Source: Candidatus Nitrospira allomarina
GTDB taxonomy: Bacteria > Nitrospirota > Nitrospiria > Nitrospirales > UBA8639
Length of the DNA: 64,000 nucleotides
Assembly (NCBI RefSeq): GCF_032050975.1
Contig: NZ_CP116967.1
Location: 3,655,001-3,719,000, forward strand
Reading direction: 5' to 3'
The position numbers and the translations under genes were made by a program. Positions within the stretch are counted from its first letter, which is position 1. Each line of letters starts with the position of its first letter. The notes below the pieces were generated by a model. That model searched no databases. It saw only the letters and a program-made list of their open reading frames with translations, and was not told the DNA's origin. This document shows, piece by piece, positions 51,788 to 61,764 of the stretch.

Positions 51788-52855
51788 ATGGGTCTAAATC
51801 TACTTCTGATCTTCATTCCCATTGCAATAGGACTTGACTGGTACGAAGCCAACCCCATTCTGGTCTTCATTGCCTCAGGCCTCGCCATTGTGCCACTAGC
51901 GGGGTTGATGGGTCGATCAACGGAAAGCCTGTCGGCCTATATCGGCGCCACTCTGGGAGGATTACTCGCCGCCACGATGGGAAACGCTCCGGAATTGATT
52001 ATTTCGATTTTTGCCCTGAAAGCCGGTCTGTACGACGTGGTCAAGGCTTCCATTACCGGATCCATCGTGGGAAATTTGCTGCTCGGGATGGGGCTGGCGA
52101 TTCTCCTCGGCGGCCTTCGCCATGAACGGCAAAAGTTTAATGCGACGGCGGCCGGGATGAGTTCGGGACTGTTAACACTCGCAGGTGTCGGGCTTATGGT
52201 CCCTGCTCTGTTTCATTTCACTTCCAAACAGGAAGAGGAACTCAGTACGGAAATCGCCATTGTGCTTTTTATCGCTTATATCCTAAGCCTGGTGTTTACC
52301 CTGAAAACTCACCAGCATTTATTTCGTACGGAACCCGCAGAACCGGGTGAAGGCACTCCCCCCCAAAAAGGGGAAAAGGAAGAGCCCGCCTGGAGTAAAA
52401 ACAAAGCCATTGGCATGTTAGCAGCCGTAACGGTCGGCATTGCCTTCATGAGCGAAATTTTGACGGGAGCGATTGAACCCGCAGCCGCAGGCATCGGCCT
52501 CACGCCTATCTTTGCCGGTGTGATTTTTCTCGCCGTATTCGGGAATGCGGCAGAGCTGATGAATTCGATACGGTTCGCCAGGAATAATCAAATGGATCTG
52601 GTCATGGGAATTGCCGTCGGGGCGAGTACCCAGGTGATTATGTTTGTGGCACCGATGCTGGTATTCGTCAGTTACCTTCTCGGTCCCAAACCTCTGGATC
52701 TGCTTTTCGTGCCATTTGAAATTGCGGCCATTGTCATTGCGATTCTCGTCAATGGGAACCTCACGAAGGATGGCGAATCCCACTGGATGGAGGGCGTGAT
52801 GCTGCTGGGAGTCTATTTAATTTTGGGCATTGGATTTTTCTTTCTCCCGATGTAG
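51788..52855 (+). CDS. Ca2+/H+ exchanger of the CAX family
   Basis: 355 residues, AAAGGG before the ATG. It has about eleven hydrophobic helices in two halves, each with an inverted alpha-repeat motif of the CaCA superfamily: LLAATMGNAPELIISIFALK (about 60-79) and IFLAVFGNAAELMNSIRFAR (about 247-266), with the ion-coordinating Glu in GNA-x-E-L. An acidic/charged loop (EPAEPGEGTPPQKGEKEEP, about 181-199) separates the halves. It should drive Ca2+ or another divalent cation out of the cytoplasm using protons (family knowledge). The carbonic anhydrase-like gene follows 12 bases after the stop, so they are co-transcribed. Confidence 0.92.
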   Translation: MGLNLLLIFIPIAIGLDWYEANPILVFIASGLAIVPLAGLMGRSTESLSAYIGATLGGLLAATMGNAPELIISIFALKAGLYDVVKASITGSIVGNLLLGMGLAILLGGLRHERQKFNATAAGMSSGLLTLAGVGLMVPALFHFTSKQEEELSTEIAIVLFIAYILSLVFTLKTHQHLFRTEPAEPGEGTPPQKGEKEEPAWSKNKAIGMLAAVTVGIAFMSEILTGAIEPAAAGIGLTPIFAGVIFLAVFGNAAELMNSIRFARNNQMDLVMGIAVGASTQVIMFVAPMLVFVSYLLGPKPLDLLFVPFEIAAIVIAILVNGNLTKDGESHWMEGVMLLGVYLILGIGFFFLPM

Positions 52856-52867
52856 CCAGGCAAACCC

Positions 52868-53587
52868 ATGGCAAGCTTTGAAACAGTCCTCTCTGCACAC
52901 TTTCCCAGGGCGATACTCCAAGAGGATTTTGTCCAACGCTCATATGCGCTCTTGCAGGCTGAGGGATTCCGCGCTGAGAACACGATTGCCTTCGTCAGCG
53001 TATGCCGGGATGAACTGACGTTGCCTCTGGTCGAGGAAGTGAAAAAAACCTGGGGAGAAGCCTTTATTTTTTCCAGTCTGGGCGGCATGCTTTTCCTCGG
53101 AAAGACCGGATTTTTAGCGGCACAGCACCATGCGCCGAATGAAGATGGGCGTGAACGTTATGTCTATTTTGCCCTGCCGCACATCGGCGTGGATGCAGAA
53201 GGCGAGATTGGTCGCCATGATCGCCCAGGGCGCTTTCAACCGTCCCATGCCTGCGGAGCGTTGCACGGATTTCAGATGGAACTGGCCAATCGGTGTGTCT
53301 CTTTAGGAATCGATCCTGATGACATCGAGCAAAGCCTGCTGAAACAACATCTGTTTCGCAAACTCACTTACGGTGATATTCCGGACCTGTTGAGTCTCAC
53401 GAAAATTGCCTATGCCGTCATTCTGGAGGAACTGAAAAGAATGATCCACATAACCGTTGACCCCCTTCATAATGACTATGCCGTCCTGACAGGCATTCAA
53501 ATTCACGGTCCCCAAGGCATGGAATACATCTGGCCTGGAGAGACCTACTGGGTCCGGGATGGAAATCGCCAGGGCTTTGCCTTATAG
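52868..53587 (+). CDS. LCIB/C-family carbonic anhydrase-like protein
   Basis: 239 residues. The region FVSVCRDELTLPLVEEVKKT, then IFSSLGGMLFLGKTGFLAAQHHAP, YFALPHIGVDAEGEIGRHDRPG and PSHACGALHGF matches the limiting-CO2-inducible B/C family, which has a beta-carbonic-anhydrase-type fold. The Zn ligands expected are a Cys-His-Cys set; C46, a His at 87, 88 or 105, and C129 are the candidates, and the C-R-D-E motif (46-49) gives the usual Asp-Arg dyad. The family interconverts CO2 and bicarbonate in algal and bacterial members (family knowledge). It is 12 bases downstream of the CAX gene, and so may link bicarbonate or pH with Ca2+/H+ exchange (inference). Confidence 0.82.
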   Translation: MASFETVLSAHFPRAILQEDFVQRSYALLQAEGFRAENTIAFVSVCRDELTLPLVEEVKKTWGEAFIFSSLGGMLFLGKTGFLAAQHHAPNEDGRERYVYFALPHIGVDAEGEIGRHDRPGRFQPSHACGALHGFQMELANRCVSLGIDPDDIEQSLLKQHLFRKLTYGDIPDLLSLTKIAYAVILEELKRMIHITVDPLHNDYAVLTGIQIHGPQGMEYIWPGETYWVRDGNRQGFAL

Positions 53588-53806
53588 GTTGGTATTGTTC
53601 AGGTAACGCTAGAGGGGCGATTTCTCGGCCGGACCATTTACAGGGAAATCTCCTTTGGAGGGGTTGACCCATTTACCGTGATGGGTATTTTTTAAAAATA
53701 TTATCTATTTCAAGGATATATGCCTTGCAAATCAATTGATAGATATTTATAAATAAGCCGTCAGTGAAAAGGTGTGAATAATCATTTCTTGAAGGAGGGC
53801 TTGCAA

Positions 53807-54046
53807 ATGGAAGCTGTAATCGGCGGTGCTGTTGTTGGAGCTGTGGCGGCAGTGGCCGCTCCTTCGCTTATTTCGGGAATTGGAGAGGTGCTTCGTCCCT
53901 TGGCGAAAGAAGTCCTCAAGGGGGGAATTGTGGCCTATACCGCTGTATCAGAAATGGTTGCCGAGACCGGGGAACAATTCAATGACATTGTCGCCGAGGC
54001 CAAAGCAGAAATTGCTCATCCCGCGAAAACCAAACCCTCAAACTAG
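53807..54046 (+). CDS. DUF5132-type small membrane protein (copy 1)
   Basis: 79 residues with AAGGAGG before the ATG. A glycine/alanine-rich membrane helix (VIGGAVVGAVAAVAAPSLIS, 4-23) precedes the family phrase LRPLAKEVLKGGIVAYTAVS and a charged tail EMVAETGEQFNDIVAEAKAE. DUF5132 proteins are small, single-helix, of unknown role. About 83% identical by eye with the copy at 61516-61764. It is the first gene of a string of five or six small genes that ends with the P-type ATPase and further DUF5132 copies. Confidence 0.85.
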   Translation: MEAVIGGAVVGAVAAVAAPSLISGIGEVLRPLAKEVLKGGIVAYTAVSEMVAETGEQFNDIVAEAKAEIAHPAKTKPSN

Positions 54047-54064
54047 TCCAGATTGGGTCGGAAC

Positions 54065-54367
54065 ATGCCACAGCCTGATAAAGAAGATCCTGAATCCACG
54101 GACAACTCCCAAGCCGGGAGCGGTCCGGGGGGAATCTCTGGAGCGTTCCGCCCATTAGTCAAAGAGCTTGTGAAAGCCGGGCTTATCGCATATGAAACGG
54201 TTTCAGAGAAGGCATCGGGCTTCGGGAAACAATTGAATGATCTCGTAGAAGAGGCACGGTCGGAAACGATAAAAACGCCCCACCCTGCCAGTGCCCCCGA
54301 AGAAACCGAAACAAAAGGCAAAGCGAGAAAATCTGGAAAGGCGAAGGATTCACACAGAAATGCCTGA
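54065..54367 (+). CDS. DUF5132-type protein (copy 2), no N-terminal helix
   Basis: 100 residues from the ATG at 54065; a TTG twelve bases earlier would be an alternative. It has an acidic start, then GGISGAFRPLVKELVKAGLI and AYETVSEKASGFGKQLNDLV, which matches the RPLAKE-x-x-K-G-G-x-x-A-Y and helical tail of copy 1, but the membrane helix is missing. It ends with a Lys/Glu-rich low-complexity tail. It follows copy 1 by 18 bases and is likely soluble or peripheral. The weak ribosome site suggests coupling to the upstream gene. Confidence 0.7.
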   Translation: MPQPDKEDPESTDNSQAGSGPGGISGAFRPLVKELVKAGLIAYETVSEKASGFGKQLNDLVEEARSETIKTPHPASAPEETETKGKARKSGKAKDSHRNA

Positions 54368-54397
54368 CGAAGGTCCGGAGAGTCATAAGGAAGACCA

Positions 54398-54787
54398 ATG
54401 AAAATCGAAAAGGACATTCAGGTTGTGCATGCTTTGCCTGATCGGGTGCGCCTTAAGCTTCACCGGCTGAAAAACAATATGGCCTATGCCGAGGAAATTC
54501 AACGCCGGCTTTATAACGTTCAGGGGATTACACATCTGGAGACCAATCCCAAGACAGGAAGCCTCCTCATTCACTACGATCCCACTGTCTTAGAAATGCT
54601 GGCCCTTCATCCGTCCATTTCATCCTCTCTGGGCCCATCCTCTCCTGAGGTCAAACCAACAAACAAAGCTGCCCCTCCTGCTAAAGCCCGCGTCAAACCC
54701 TTAAAAACCGTTCGCAAGGCCGGCACCAAAATTGAGAAAAAAACCAAATCTAATAAATTTTCCAAGAAAGCCAAAGGCAAATCTTAA
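54398..54787 (+). CDS. HMA-like (HMA_2) protein with basic tail
   Basis: 129 residues; AAGGAA precedes the ATG. Residues 1-65 form an HMA-like ferredoxin fold: IQVVHALPDRVRLKLHRLKN, then EEIQRRLYNVQGITHLETNP and GSLLIHYDPT. The Cys-x-x-Cys metal site of classical HMA domains is absent; the loop reads P-D-R-V-R. The C-terminus (about 80-129) is a Lys/Ala/Pro-rich, histone-like tail. The same V-H-x-x-P-x-R-x-R pattern recurs twice in the P-type ATPase that follows 137 bases downstream, so this may be a stand-alone partner or regulator of that pump (inference). Confidence 0.8.
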   Translation: MKIEKDIQVVHALPDRVRLKLHRLKNNMAYAEEIQRRLYNVQGITHLETNPKTGSLLIHYDPTVLEMLALHPSISSSLGPSSPEVKPTNKAAPPAKARVKPLKTVRKAGTKIEKKTKSNKFSKKAKGKS

Positions 54788-54924
54788 ATTTGACGCTAGC
54801 AGCCAGGGCAAGAAAGGTGATGGAAACCACAGGATTAAACCCGCCTGTATCCTTATAAATAAGAGTTTTTAAAACGCACAGATGTATTCCCCCAACCTTC
54901 ACTTCATTCAAAGGAATTATTCCC

Positions 54925-57528
54925 ATGGGCGTTCATTCGGCCTCCATTGTTCATGCTGTTCCAGGGCGTCTTCGTGTAAAACTGTCTGATAACGAGCAAA
55001 ATTTTGACTCCGCGGAAGCCATTGATCTCAAGCTTTCTGAGTTGGAAGGGGTAGATGAGGTCACAAGGAATTTAACCACCGGTCACCTCATTCTTCACTA
55101 TGATGAATGTCAGGGAACAAATCCAAAATTTTTCCGTTCCGTAGCTGAGACCCTTGGAGTCTCCCCGAACGTTTTCACCATCGACCACCTCGAAACATCC
55201 TTCGGGCAGACCGTGCATGATCAGAACAATGGGAATGGAGCGAAGGCCCCTTCGAGAAAACAATCCCTAAACCTACCCGCCACCATTCCCAATATCATGG
55301 CCTCTTCGAAGGTGGTCCACTCACTTCCAGAACGAGTGCGTCTTCGTGTCCCTGCCTTGCAGATTCGTACCCGGCTTGCCGAAGCCCTCCCTATCTTTTT
55401 ACAAGACCAGGAAGGCATTCAGGAGGTCAGTGTCAATTCCAGCTGCTCAAGCGTCACGGTGATATTTGACTCGACCCTCTGGGACGGAGAAAGACTCTGC
55501 CAATTCCTGCGAGACCTTCGGCATGAGGACATTGAGGCCTACCAGCCCAAGCAGGTCATACAAGAACAGGCAGAGAATGCGGTCGATGAGGAATCGGGCC
55601 CGGAATTGTGGTACTCAAGCACCGGAATTGCCATCGCCCTGTTCGTGGAACCACTGGCCCCGATCGCGGTCCCCGCCTTCCTCCTGGCCGCTGCACTGCC
55701 TATGCTCAAACGAGCTTACCATTCTGTCGCGGTGGACGGGAAACTGAATGTGGATGTGCTTGATGCCTCCGCCACCGCTTTGATGTCGATACAAGGCGCC
55801 TTTCCCATGGCGACCGGTATGGTCTTTTTAATCAATGTGGCGGACTATATTCGTGACCTGACCGTATTGCAATCCAAGAAGGCGATTGAAGAAGTCCTGG
55901 CCTACCAGAAGACTCGAGCGTGGGTCATTCGCGACGGGCAAACCATTCAAGTTCCCGTCAGTGAGATTCAACGAGGAGAAACCGTGGTTGTCTACCCGGG
56001 GGAACGGATTTCCATAGATGGGACCGTCCAATCGGGAATAGCCCTGGTGGATCAGGCTACTCTAACCGGTGAATCCATGCCGGTCGAAAAAAATCCCGGC
56101 GATCCGGTCTATGCCGCTACAGTCCTGCGTGAAGGGGAACTCTACATTCAGGCTGAACAAATCGGAGATGAAACCGAGGCCGCCCGGATTGTGCGGTTAG
56201 TTGAGGGCGCCCCGGCCAGAGAGACTAAAATTCAAAACTATGCCGTGAAATGGGCCAATGATCTGGTCCCCTATAGTTTTGGTCTTGGCGCGTTGGGAGC
56301 CGTCATTGGAGGCGGTATTCCCGGCGCGGCGGCAGTGTTAATTGTGGACTACGGAACGGGAATCCGAATCGCGGCTCCCACGACCGTTCTCTGCTCCATG
56401 ACCAAAGCGATCCGCCATGGCATATTGATTAAAGGTGGGCGGCACATGGAAACCCTGGCTGAAGTGGATGCTGTGGTCTTTGATAAAACAGGCACCTTAA
56501 CCATGGGACACCCTGACGTGGTGGACATTTGCCCACTTGGCTCCTTTACCGCAGACGAAGTCTTAACCCTGGCAGCGGCTGCGGAGAATCGCCTGACACA
56601 CCCTGTGGCCCAAGCCATTGTCCGGGCTGCGCAGGAACGTGGACTCATTATCCCGGAGCGAACCACCTCCGACTACACGCTGGGACTTGGCGTTGAATCC
56701 ATAGTGGACGATAAGATTGTACTGGTGGGGAATCACCGGTATATGGCGGAACAACGCATCACTCTTTCAAAAAAGATCAAAAAGCAAATCAGCGACATGG
56801 AAGATCGTGCCGTCTCTCCCCTCTGTGTGGCCGTGGATGGGAAACTCGCAGGCCTCTTGTCCTATACCGATCCTATCAGGCCGGAGGCCATTGAAGTGAT
56901 TCAGGCTCTCAAAGAACGTGGGGTCAAAGAAATCGTGATGCTCACAGGAGATCATGAAAAGGTCGCCAAACGCGTTGCCATGGACTTAGGGATTGACCGC
57001 TACATCGCCGAAGTCTTCCCCGGCCATAAAGCCGATGTGGTGAAGGACTTGCAACGACAAGGATATAAGGTGGCAGTGGTGGGAGATGGGATCAATGACT
57101 CCCCGGCCCTCGCCTTTGCCGATGTTGGAATTGCCGTGGAGGGAGGAACTCAGGTCGCTCAGGATACGGCTCATGTGACCTTACTCCATGGAGGCTTATG
57201 GAAAATCCCCGCGGCCATTGACATTAGTCGTGAAGCGATCAGCTTGATCCATCAAAATTGGAAAATTATTTCTATTCCTAATACCATTGCGTTGGGGCTG
57301 GCCTGCATTGGAATCCTCGGTCCCATCGGGGCGACCTTACTCAGTAATGGGTCAGCCATCATTGCCACCTTGAATGGCCTTCGTCCCATTATGGGAAAGC
57401 CAGCAGCACCACAACGGCCCATGCTGGTAATGGAGCCACACATGGTGAATCATGATAGTTCTGACAACGGTGAGCAAGAACAACGCTTTCCTGCGTTAGA
57501 AGGGGAACTCCTCGACATCCCGGCGTAA
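54925..57528 (+). CDS. P-type ATPase with two Cys-less HMA-like domains and an unusual TM4
   Basis: 867 residues; AAAGGA precedes the ATG. The N-terminus holds two HMA_2-like domains (about 6-70 with IVHAVPGRLRVKL; about 128-200 with VVHSLPERVRLRV), neither with C-x-x-C. The ATPase core is complete: TGES at 381-384, phosphorylation site DKTGTLT with D520, HP at 559-560, and GDGIND at 720-725. In TM4 the CPC of P1B pumps is replaced: IVDYGTGIRIAAP at 473-485. A C-terminal helix pair ends the protein. It moves an unknown ion; without cysteines in HMA or TM4, soft metals such as Cu+ are unlikely (inference). It is flanked by DUF5132 genes. Confidence 0.93.
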   Translation: MGVHSASIVHAVPGRLRVKLSDNEQNFDSAEAIDLKLSELEGVDEVTRNLTTGHLILHYDECQGTNPKFFRSVAETLGVSPNVFTIDHLETSFGQTVHDQNNGNGAKAPSRKQSLNLPATIPNIMASSKVVHSLPERVRLRVPALQIRTRLAEALPIFLQDQEGIQEVSVNSSCSSVTVIFDSTLWDGERLCQFLRDLRHEDIEAYQPKQVIQEQAENAVDEESGPELWYSSTGIAIALFVEPLAPIAVPAFLLAAALPMLKRAYHSVAVDGKLNVDVLDASATALMSIQGAFPMATGMVFLINVADYIRDLTVLQSKKAIEEVLAYQKTRAWVIRDGQTIQVPVSEIQRGETVVVYPGERISIDGTVQSGIALVDQATLTGESMPVEKNPGDPVYAATVLREGELYIQAEQIGDETEAARIVRLVEGAPARETKIQNYAVKWANDLVPYSFGLGALGAVIGGGIPGAAAVLIVDYGTGIRIAAPTTVLCSMTKAIRHGILIKGGRHMETLAEVDAVVFDKTGTLTMGHPDVVDICPLGSFTADEVLTLAAAAENRLTHPVAQAIVRAAQERGLIIPERTTSDYTLGLGVESIVDDKIVLVGNHRYMAEQRITLSKKIKKQISDMEDRAVSPLCVAVDGKLAGLLSYTDPIRPEAIEVIQALKERGVKEIVMLTGDHEKVAKRVAMDLGIDRYIAEVFPGHKADVVKDLQRQGYKVAVVGDGINDSPALAFADVGIAVEGGTQVAQDTAHVTLLHGGLWKIPAAIDISREAISLIHQNWKIISIPNTIALGLACIGILGPIGATLLSNGSAIIATLNGLRPIMGKPAAPQRPMLVMEPHMVNHDSSDNGEQEQRFPALEGELLDIPA

Positions 57529-57610
57529 CCTTTATGGGATTGAGAAAGTTTCCCGAACCCATACTTCGAGAGTCTTCACCCAAACCTGTTCAAGAAGGGA
57601 GATAGTCTGT

Positions 57611-57850
57611 ATGTTGCCAATCATTGGGGGTGTGGTCGTCGGAGCGATTGCAGCGTTAGCTGTTCCATCGCTCGTTTCGGGAGTGGTTTCAGGAACGCGT
57701 GCGCTTACCAAGGGAGTTATTAAAGGGGGAATGGCAGCCTATACCGCGACTTCAGAACTCGTTGCCGAGTCAGGAGAACACATTCAAGATCTTGTCGCTG
57801 AGGCGAAATCCGAAGTCAAACAGGCAAAAAAAGCTCACGTAGAGAGCTAA
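57611..57850 (+). CDS. DUF5132-type small membrane protein (copy 3)
   Basis: 79 residues; AAGGGAG precedes the ATG. A glycine-rich helix (IIGGVVVGAIAALAVPSLVS) is followed by GTRALTKGVIKGGMAAYTAT and a helical charged tail SGEHIQDLVAEAKSEVKQAK. It lies 82 bases after the ATPase and 63 bases before copy 4, on the same strand. The R-x-L/V-x-K-x-x-x-K-G-G signature is shared with the other copies. Confidence 0.85.
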   Translation: MLPIIGGVVVGAIAALAVPSLVSGVVSGTRALTKGVIKGGMAAYTATSELVAESGEHIQDLVAEAKSEVKQAKKAHVES

Positions 57851-57913
57851 CTCTCTCCCTGACAGGGAATAAGAGAAGAGATACAAGAGAGATTTAAAGA
57901 AGAGGAGGATGTC

Positions 57914-58132
57914 ATGGAGACAGGTGTTGCGGGTTTGGTCTGGGGCGCGATCGGATTCGCGGCTACGGCCGCGGTAGGGTATTTTTCGCCCTACATTATT
58001 TCCGGTCTTCAACAAAGTGTTCGCCCTGTCGTCAAAGGAGTCGTCAAGGGAGGCCTGATAATCGAAGCGACCTTTTCAGAGCTGGTGAGTGAGGTCCAGG
58101 CGGAATTGACACATTCTTCATCGTCATCATAA
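57914..58132 (+). CDS. DUF5132-type small membrane protein (copy 4)
   Basis: 72 residues; GAGGAGG precedes the ATG. Hydrophobic segment GLVWGAIGFAATAAVGYFSP, then RPVVKGVVKGGLIIEATFSE, with a short acidic tail ending in a run of Ser. It is shorter and more divergent than copies 1 and 3 but keeps R-P-x-x-K-x-x-x-K-G-G. The Ser-rich end (HSSSSS) is unlike its siblings. Confidence 0.8.
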   Translation: METGVAGLVWGAIGFAATAAVGYFSPYIISGLQQSVRPVVKGVVKGGLIIEATFSELVSEVQAELTHSSSSS

Positions 58133-58272
58133 TGCTCTTGCATGACGAGAGGTCGAGCTCTGCGATATTCGGAGATTGGATTCTTCTCAGAATTTTACAA
58201 CCTGCCATGTTTTCGCTAGAATTCTGCGGCGGAATGAGGACAAAGGCTTTCTTACTCTAAAAGGAAATTGAT

Positions 58273-58608
58273 ATGCCAAAACGCGCAACCAGCACAGTAG
58301 AGACAGAAACATTGGGTGACTCAATTGCGGGAAGTGGCAAAGAGGCACTAGGAAGCCTGGAGGGTGGCATTACCTCGCTCACCGGTGGGATTTGGGAAGT
58401 CTTTCACGAGCATCCCAATGTCGGTGGCGTCTTGACCGGAGGGTTGGGCATGGCTGCAGCCATGACCATTGGTGTCGCTGAGATTGTGGCTGGGGTCGCC
58501 GCAGGCTATCTCGGGTACAGAATTTTTGCCTATGGAGAGACATTTACCGAGGCCATTGAAAAGACCATCGAGTTCAGAGAAGGCAAGCTCTCAAAAGAGG
58601 AGCTCTAA
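58273..58608 (+). CDS. Small glycine-rich membrane protein
   Basis: 111 residues; AAAAGGAA lies about six bases before the ATG. A polar start (1-20) is followed by a glycine-rich stretch (GKEALGSLEGGITSLTGGIW), then a hydrophobic helix pair with many Gly and Ala (VGGVLTGGLGMAAAMTIGVA, EIVAGVAAGYLGYRIFAYG). The C-terminus is a charged amphipathic helix. It is not a DUF5132 member by eye but shares the glycine-zipper character and lies 140 bases after copy 4, so it probably belongs to the same cluster. Its function is unknown. Confidence 0.72.
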   Translation: MPKRATSTVETETLGDSIAGSGKEALGSLEGGITSLTGGIWEVFHEHPNVGGVLTGGLGMAAAMTIGVAEIVAGVAAGYLGYRIFAYGETFTEAIEKTIEFREGKLSKEEL

Positions 58609-61515: not shown

Positions 61516-61764
61516 CTACTGCGATTTAGCCCGCGGGGATTTTTTATCGGGATGCTCGATTTCTGCTTTGGCCTCAGCAACGATGTCATTGAAATGTTCT
61601 CCGGTTTCAGAAACCATTTCTGACACAGCCGCGTAAGCCACAAGACCTCCTTTAATAATTTCCTTGGCAAGGGGGCGAAGAACCGATCCTATTCCTGAGG
61701 CTATCGAGGGTACAGCCACTGCGGCAACAGCTCCGACCACCACACCACCAATGACAGCTTCCAT
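61516..61764 (-). CDS. DUF5132-type small membrane protein (copy 5, opposite strand)
   Basis: 82 residues; AAAGGAGG lies just before the ATG. VIGGVVVGAVAAVAVPSIAS, VLRPLAKEIIKGGLVAYAAV and SEMVSETGEHFNDIVAEAKA match copy 1 at 53807-54046 almost position by position (about 83% by eye over 73 residues). It is the closest pair in the window, although separated by 7.5 kb and inverted. No HMA or ATPase gene is beside it. It probably arose by a displaced duplication of copy 1 or the reverse. Confidence 0.85.
   Translation of the reverse strand: MEAVIGGVVVGAVAAVAVPSIASGIGSVLRPLAKEIIKGGLVAYAAVSEMVSETGEHFNDIVAEAKAEIEHPDKKSPRAKSQ

Follow-up and report, generated by a model that had tools for sequence, protein, structure and literature searches.

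What do several small genes of a domain of unknown function, DUF5132, do around a P-type ATPase, and which ion would such a pump move? The question is raised by a cluster at positions 53807-58608 of the window (the whole stretch of 64,000 nt that was analysed, on NZ_CP116967.1), in the 4.55-Mb genome of a nitrite-oxidiser-like bacterium. No mention of DUF5132 by name was found in the literature searched. Based on profile and motif comparisons, and on analogy with a mycobacterial system, the cluster is read here as a PacL-like platform which would assemble a divergent cation-export ATPase, possibly one for Ca2+. A probability of about 0.6 is attached to this reading.

The DUF5132 cluster and its genes

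ORF calling and Pfam searches bore out the initial annotation of this region, which had listed four DUF5132-type genes, a stand-alone HMA-like protein, a P-type ATPase and a glycine-rich membrane protein: their positions were confirmed and all of them point rightward (+ strand), with intergenic gaps, from left to right, of 18, 30, 137, 82, 63 and 140 bases. The first gene, DUF5132 copy a (53807..54046), matches PF17195 with 45 bits (E 1e-11), and hydropathy analysis revealed one transmembrane (TM) segment at residues 4-22, carrying a GxxxG motif, followed by a long predicted cytoplasmic helix. Copy b (54065..54367; PF17195 21.7 bits, E 2e-4, below the cut-off) has a lysine-rich tail and contains neither a TM-like 19-mer nor any hydrophobic segment, as judged by hydropathy. 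The ATG at 54065 is more likely to be its start than the TTG at 54053, because the copy of one relative starts there; orthologues were found in four relatives (L028, L029, L030 and L182) and dN/dS is 0.29. The stand-alone HMA_2 protein with its basic tail (54398..54787; PF19991 58 bits, E 1e-15) and the P1B-type ATPase, a protein of 867 aa with two N-terminal HMA_2 domains (54925..57528; TIGR01525 512 bits), follow. Copy c (57611..57850; PF17195 33 bits, E 6e-8) again combines one TM segment with a long helix. The short, divergent copy d (57914..58132) was matched at E 0.05 by Pfam and at E 3e-19 by a local DUF5132 profile which had copy d among its own input; it is strongly conserved, with 90-92% identity among relatives and dN/dS of 0.06-0.13. 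The last gene (58273..58608) encodes the glycine-rich membrane protein of 111 aa, which has no family assignment.

Three genes were added to the earlier list. A fifth DUF5132 copy, e, lies on the minus strand 3 kb downstream of the cluster (61516..61764; PF17195 39 bits), and such a downstream copy was also seen in relative L029. Ahead of the cluster, on the plus strand, are a CAX-type Ca2+/H+ exchanger of 355 aa (51788..52855; TIGR00378 over its cut-off, E 2e-104; Na_Ca_ex) and an LCIB-type carbonic anhydrase of 239 aa (52868..53587; PF18599 over the full length, E 8e-56). All DUF5132 and all HMA_2 Pfam matches of the genome are confined to this one locus. A promoter and terminator scan gave no clear excess over shuffled sequence; a terminator-like stem at 53667-53686, between the LCIB gene and copy a, is within chance numbers, and the CAX/LCIB pair may form a separate transcript.

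That the small ORFs are spurious calls was ruled out, as comparison with two relatives revealed purifying selection on every cluster gene (dN/dS 0.06-0.51), which marks the small genes as real. The TM-like segment at residues 4-22 was found by hydropathy in copies a, c, d and e, and G7 and G11 within it are near-invariant in the DUF5132 alignment. The C-termini read KAHVES, KTKPSN, SSSSS and similar. A structure model of copy c, built from 16 sequences, consists of helices 3-17 and 28-78 at low confidence (pLDDT 53) and was judged too uncertain for a fold search. No solved structure related to DUF5132 was identified, the only matches being helical ones with E values of 0.1 or worse.

Relation of DUF5132 to the PacL family

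Proteins of the DUF1490 family (PacL) are scaffolds which cluster P1B-ATPases into mycobacterial membrane 'effluxosomes'; clustering proceeds via TM glycines (GXXG), a Glu/Ala region contacts the pump N-terminal domain, and the pump is lost when PacL is missing (PMC9374683, PMC13043812). DUF6110 'PacL-like' proteins have already been tied to P1B6 pumps, and their relation to DUF1490 has been published (PMC9374683, PMC13043812). Pfam searches gave no match of the DUF5132 proteins of the window to either DUF1490 (PF07371) or DUF6110.

A DUF5132 profile (49 recognised ORFs) was compared with these families by hhalign, giving scores of 41.2 against DUF6110, 34.6 against DUF1490 and 45.7 against both together; for reference, the accepted DUF6110-DUF1490 relation scores 42.6. 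None of 150 column shuffles per target reached the DUF5132 scores, the maximum being 18.4. When a combined DUF6110 and DUF1490 profile was run by hmmsearch in the reciprocal direction against 10,762 ORFs, the sole DUF6110 protein came out on top, followed by an uninterrupted block of 37 DUF5132 proteins. A chance likeness between Ala/Glu-rich helices was ruled out as the source of the similarity by the column shuffles, by reversal and by the reciprocal search. The aligned part covers about 50 columns and corresponds to the cytoplasmic Ala/Glu-rich helix ending in D[IVL]xAEAK; the TM segments of DUF5132 and PacL do not align in the profiles and have only a type of motif in common (GxxxG versus GXXG). 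These profile comparisons establish that DUF5132 belongs, as a divergent branch, to the PacL family (DUF1490/DUF6110), a link that is new here and that specialists would find of interest.

The likeness extends to overall design. Both DUF5132 and PacL are small proteins with an N-terminal TM helix bearing a glycine motif and an Ala/Glu-rich cytoplasmic helix that ends in a D[IVL]xAEAx signature; their genes lie beside P1B-ATPase genes (CtpC, CtpG and CtpV in the case of PacL), with several copies per system. Unlike PacL, DUF5132 forms a Pfam family of its own, carries no C-terminal metal-binding motif, occurs at this locus in four copies of which one lacks the TM helix, has an HMA_2 partner gene, accompanies a pump without CPC and is linked to P2A pumps as well. 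The His/Asp metal-binding motif found at the C-terminus of PacL is absent from the DUF5132 copies. Since they have no His-rich metal-binding tail, the metallochaperone role of PacL1 is, as judged from these termini, not conserved in DUF5132. DUF6110 is the closest single-family profile match, it too is without a metal-binding motif, and its pumps are the sister group of the DUF5132-linked ones. It differs in usually being present as one copy and in the signatures of its pumps, which have D[YF]SCA in TM4 and HN in TM6 where DUF5132-linked pumps have D[YF][GA]TG and [SN]NG. A more general analogy, by description alone, is offered by KdpF, a small single-helix subunit of the P-type ATPase KdpB and likewise a small membrane protein accompanying a P-type pump.

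It had been proposed at the outset that the small helices either surround the pump as subunits or form a patch of membrane in which it works. That idea is strengthened, since DUF5132 is homologous to PacL, for which such a role has been shown in mycobacteria; the suggestion of a wholly new system gives way to that of a branch of a known one. The pump-platform ('effluxosome') concept would thereby reach beyond mycobacteria and DUF6110-bearing organisms, into Nitrospirota and further bacterial groups, and a domain present in several phyla would gain a testable role.

The P-type ATPase and its HMA_2 domains

The catalytic motifs TGES, DKTGT, HP and GDGxND of the window pump are intact and fall in invariant alignment columns. 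In an AlphaFold2 model (mean pLDDT 74) the P1B core is preceded by two ferredoxin-like domains, both with the secondary-structure order b-b-a-b-b-a. In Cu and Zn pumps the TM4 motif is CPC. In its place the window pump has D475-YGTG (56347..56361, + strand), and D[YF][GA]TG[IF]R was found in all 13 aligned P1B pumps of the same clade; in TM6 it has S807-NGS (57343..57354, + strand), with [SN]NGS in each of the 12 clade pumps that are complete at that end. In this alignment no Cys or His occupies the TM4 or TM6 ligand positions of the clade pumps. An HN motif in TM6 is a feature of P1B6 pumps (PMC9374683); the P1B6 signature, consisting of this HN and the TM4 SCA of DUF6110-linked pumps, is absent from the DUF5132 clade.

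In a maximum-likelihood tree the 13 DxGTG/DxATG pumps constitute one clade (100/100), which is sister to, and not inside, the DUF6110-linked P1B6 pumps (92/87). Twelve of the 13 adjoin a DUF5132 gene, the remaining one (L032) being on a short contig. The tree and alignment thus define the DUF5132-linked P1B pumps as a clade of their own, with a TM site devoid of Cys and His, which is a new finding. Since neither ligand position retains a Cys or His, Cu+, Zn2+ and Cd2+ are disfavoured, and the motifs suggest that the substrate is non-thiophilic. Thiophilic metals are, as a rule, the substrates of P1B pumps; a P1B clade lacking the customary Cys/His ligands, itself of interest to specialists, directly challenges that rule.

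An ordinary heavy-metal resistance operon, in which the pump exports Zn-, Cd- or Cu-like ions and the small proteins serve as PacL-like accessory scaffolds with the substrate unchanged, would accord with the curated model 'heavy metal translocating' (TIGR01525), which the pump exceeds in cut-off with its 512 bits, with CopA, ATP7B and ZntA as the nearest solved structures to its model, and with the service of PacL relatives to Zn/Cd pumps (PMC9374683). This explanation is considered unlikely, given the clade pumps' TM4 and TM6 positions without Cys or His, HMA_2 domains that lack CxxC, DUF5132 proteins that lack a metal-binding tail, and neighbours which are a CAX exchanger and a carbonic anhydrase.

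The HMA_2 matches in the window score 58.0 and 64.7 bits against a PF19991 cut-off of 30. The CxxC metal site of the HMA (PF00403) type is absent from all three HMA_2 domains of the window, while the HMA_2 alignment shows no variation at H11, R16 and R18 (H..P.R.R); lacking CxxC, these domains would not be metal carriers of the ordinary kind. The tail of the stand-alone protein (residues 79-129) is lysine-rich, with 17 K/R versus 2 D/E, and at several other loci the corresponding protein terminates in a hydrophobic segment. CoBaHMA (conserved-basic HMA) domains reportedly came to notice through work on intracellular CaCO3 in cyanobacteria, and are said to have been proposed to touch anionic lipids. 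Set beside this general description of the family, the window domains would fit in being without CxxC, in their invariant His, Arg and Arg, in occurring both alone and on P-type ATPases, and in the extra first strand (b-b-a-b-b-a) which the model gives to the pump HMA_2 domains. Their assignment as CoBaHMA-like is a tentative lead.

By analogy with PacL, the following arrangement is inferred for the platform. DUF5132 copies a, c and d would be small scaffolds whose TM helices pack together in the membrane through GxxxG, and whose Ala/Glu-rich cytoplasmic helix would grip the N-terminal HMA_2 domains of the pump, so that the pump is stabilised and clustered. Copy b and the stand-alone HMA_2 protein would be soluble counterparts of the scaffold and of the pump N-terminus, respectively, and may cap, bridge, tether or tune the assembly. 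The basic residues of the HMA_2 domains could make contact with the acidic helix of the scaffold or with anionic lipids. With no Cys or His ligands left at its TM site, the pump would export a hard, non-thiophilic cation, with Ca2+ as the first candidate, or else Mn2+ or Mg2+; the CAX and LCIB neighbours would speak for Ca2+ and for a role in inorganic-carbon or pH homeostasis. Clustering, pump contact and transport direction are all part of this proposal, and the substrate is put forward from the absent ligands and the neighbours.

The pump of L136, which is also linked to DUF5132, has retained both CPC and HN and falls with the DUF1490 pumps.

Recurrence across genomes and the neighbouring genes

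DUF5132 was searched for on its own, blind to neighbouring genes, in three phyla. It was found in 12 of 118 Nitrospirota genomes (the present one included), in one of the 349 genomes from a second phylum, to which a MAG titled Proteobacteria belongs, and in 15 of 201 genomes of a third, so that most genomes sampled have none. The third phylum is probably Chloroflexota; Cyanobacteria were ruled out, as PsaA/PsaB occurred in 0 of 13 genomes though they were present in a control cyanobacterium. P-type ATPases were then located in 25 of the DUF5132-bearing genomes. A P-type ATPase lies within 5 kb of DUF5132 in 20 of the 25, where the ATPase counts of the genomes would predict 0.40 (about a 50-fold excess); of the five misses, three lie at contig ends. 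In nearly all these genomes DUF5132 also adjoins an HMA_2 gene or domain, and in G586 the ATPase at DUF5132 is the sole P-type ATPase of the genome. DUF5132, HMA_2 and P-type ATPase therefore form a real, recurring unit, which is not universal. The initial annotation had named a lack of repeated co-occurrence as grounds for rejecting its candidate system; the co-occurrence was seen repeatedly, the three being adjacent in at least three phyla.

The same counts bear on whether DUF5132 proteins are simply general small membrane or stress proteins hitch-hiking with the pump. In favour of this, Ala-, Glu- and Lys-rich short helices are widespread, and a DUF5132 gene of L133 is far from any ATPase. 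Yet in several phyla, and with both P1B and P2A pumps, DUF5132 lies near a P-type ATPase 50 times more often than expected, and it is homologous to PacL; hitch-hiking appears highly improbable.

The remaining Nitrospirota loci with DUF5132 hold a P2A-type pump with an N-terminal HMA_2 domain. Where TM4 was captured these pumps have VAAVPEGLP, with N-x-x-E and N...D further on, the residues of SERCA/PMR1-type Ca2+/Mn2+ pumps. The DUF5132 and HMA_2 pair accompanies two pump subfamilies, P1B and P2A, and the scaffold is thus found beside two different kinds of P-type ATPase. Based on the TM4 and TM6 motifs without Cys or His, these P2A pumps and the CAX neighbour, the substrate of the platform's pump is possibly Ca2+.

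Among relatives, CAX is beside the cluster in L029, L030, L182 and L181, and an LCIB gene is near it in L028, L029, L030, L180, L181, L182 and L031. Of 98 relatives, the present genome among them, 7 encode the glycine-rich protein (dN/dS 0.15-0.17), and all seven bear the cluster; in 7/7 LCIB is near the cluster, as is CAX wherever flanking sequence was covered, with L180 as the exception. Two genomes from a different genus have CAX, LCIB, DUF5132, the HMA_2 pump and the glycine-rich protein together in a changed gene order. Because the parts stay together despite rearrangement, their distribution argues for a functional link of the cluster to Ca2+ and inorganic carbon. LCIB as a strict cluster partner was ruled out, since LCIB genes are also found independently of it among these relatives. 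Within the genus the cluster is patchy, and the linkage to CAX and LCIB was observed in Nitrospira-like genomes only.

A more specific reading is that a clustered Ca2+ pump, CAX and the LCIB-type carbonic anhydrase set local Ca2+, pH and bicarbonate, either for inorganic carbon supply to an autotroph or for intracellular carbonate management. The persistence of the gene set in two genera despite reshuffling, the P2A pumps at other DUF5132 loci and the reported tie of CoBaHMA to cyanobacterial CaCO3 speak for it; with LCIB genes also present apart from the cluster in relatives, and DUF5132 pumps elsewhere having no CAX or LCIB nearby, it is rated as doubtful. An extended form of the platform reading is as tentative: an undescribed P1B subfamily would pump a hard cation, most likely Ca2+, in PacL-like platforms that also gather CAX and the LCIB-type carbonic anhydrase, creating a membrane patch for local control of calcium, pH and bicarbonate in some Nitrospira-like autotrophs, with scaffold and HMA_2 adaptors interchangeable between P1B and P2A pumps. 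On a further Nitrospira contig (L031), the pump, HMA_2, the glycine-rich protein and LCIB are present.

Pump affiliation at L136 and a DUF5132 gene lacking an ATPase

The DUF5132-linked pump of locus L136 (6947-9788) was found to group with the DUF1490-linked CtpC-like pumps and has retained both the CPC and HN motifs; it is possibly an intermediate between the DUF5132 and DUF1490 systems. No ATPase was identified near the DUF5132 gene of L169 (6859-9855; the same location as L133). A short CAX-like ORF of 189 amino acids lies 2 kb from this gene.

The two LCIB-type genes and the L090 record

The LCIB-type carbonic anhydrase gene adjoining the cluster is intact, unlike the second copy in the same genome (contig 1, 1294641-1295279; locus L196), which appears to be broken by an in-frame TGA. 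PsaA and PsaB were found neither in the genome of L090, titled Pleurocapsa minor GSE-CHR-MK-17-07R, nor in its sampled phylum-mates, and the cyanobacterial name of this record looks wrong.

Further neighbouring genes

Several relatives encode, close to the cluster, a protein resembling by eye the TMEM175/DUF1211 potassium channels (L180, 3994-4638; L181, 5911-6564; L031, 4200-4847; L030, 1121-1741). In those Nitrospirota DUF5132 loci whose pump is of type P2A, an uncharacterised protein of approximately 230 amino acids is encoded between the HMA_2 gene and the pump, as in L016 (7651-8343), L023 (7639-8358) and similar loci.
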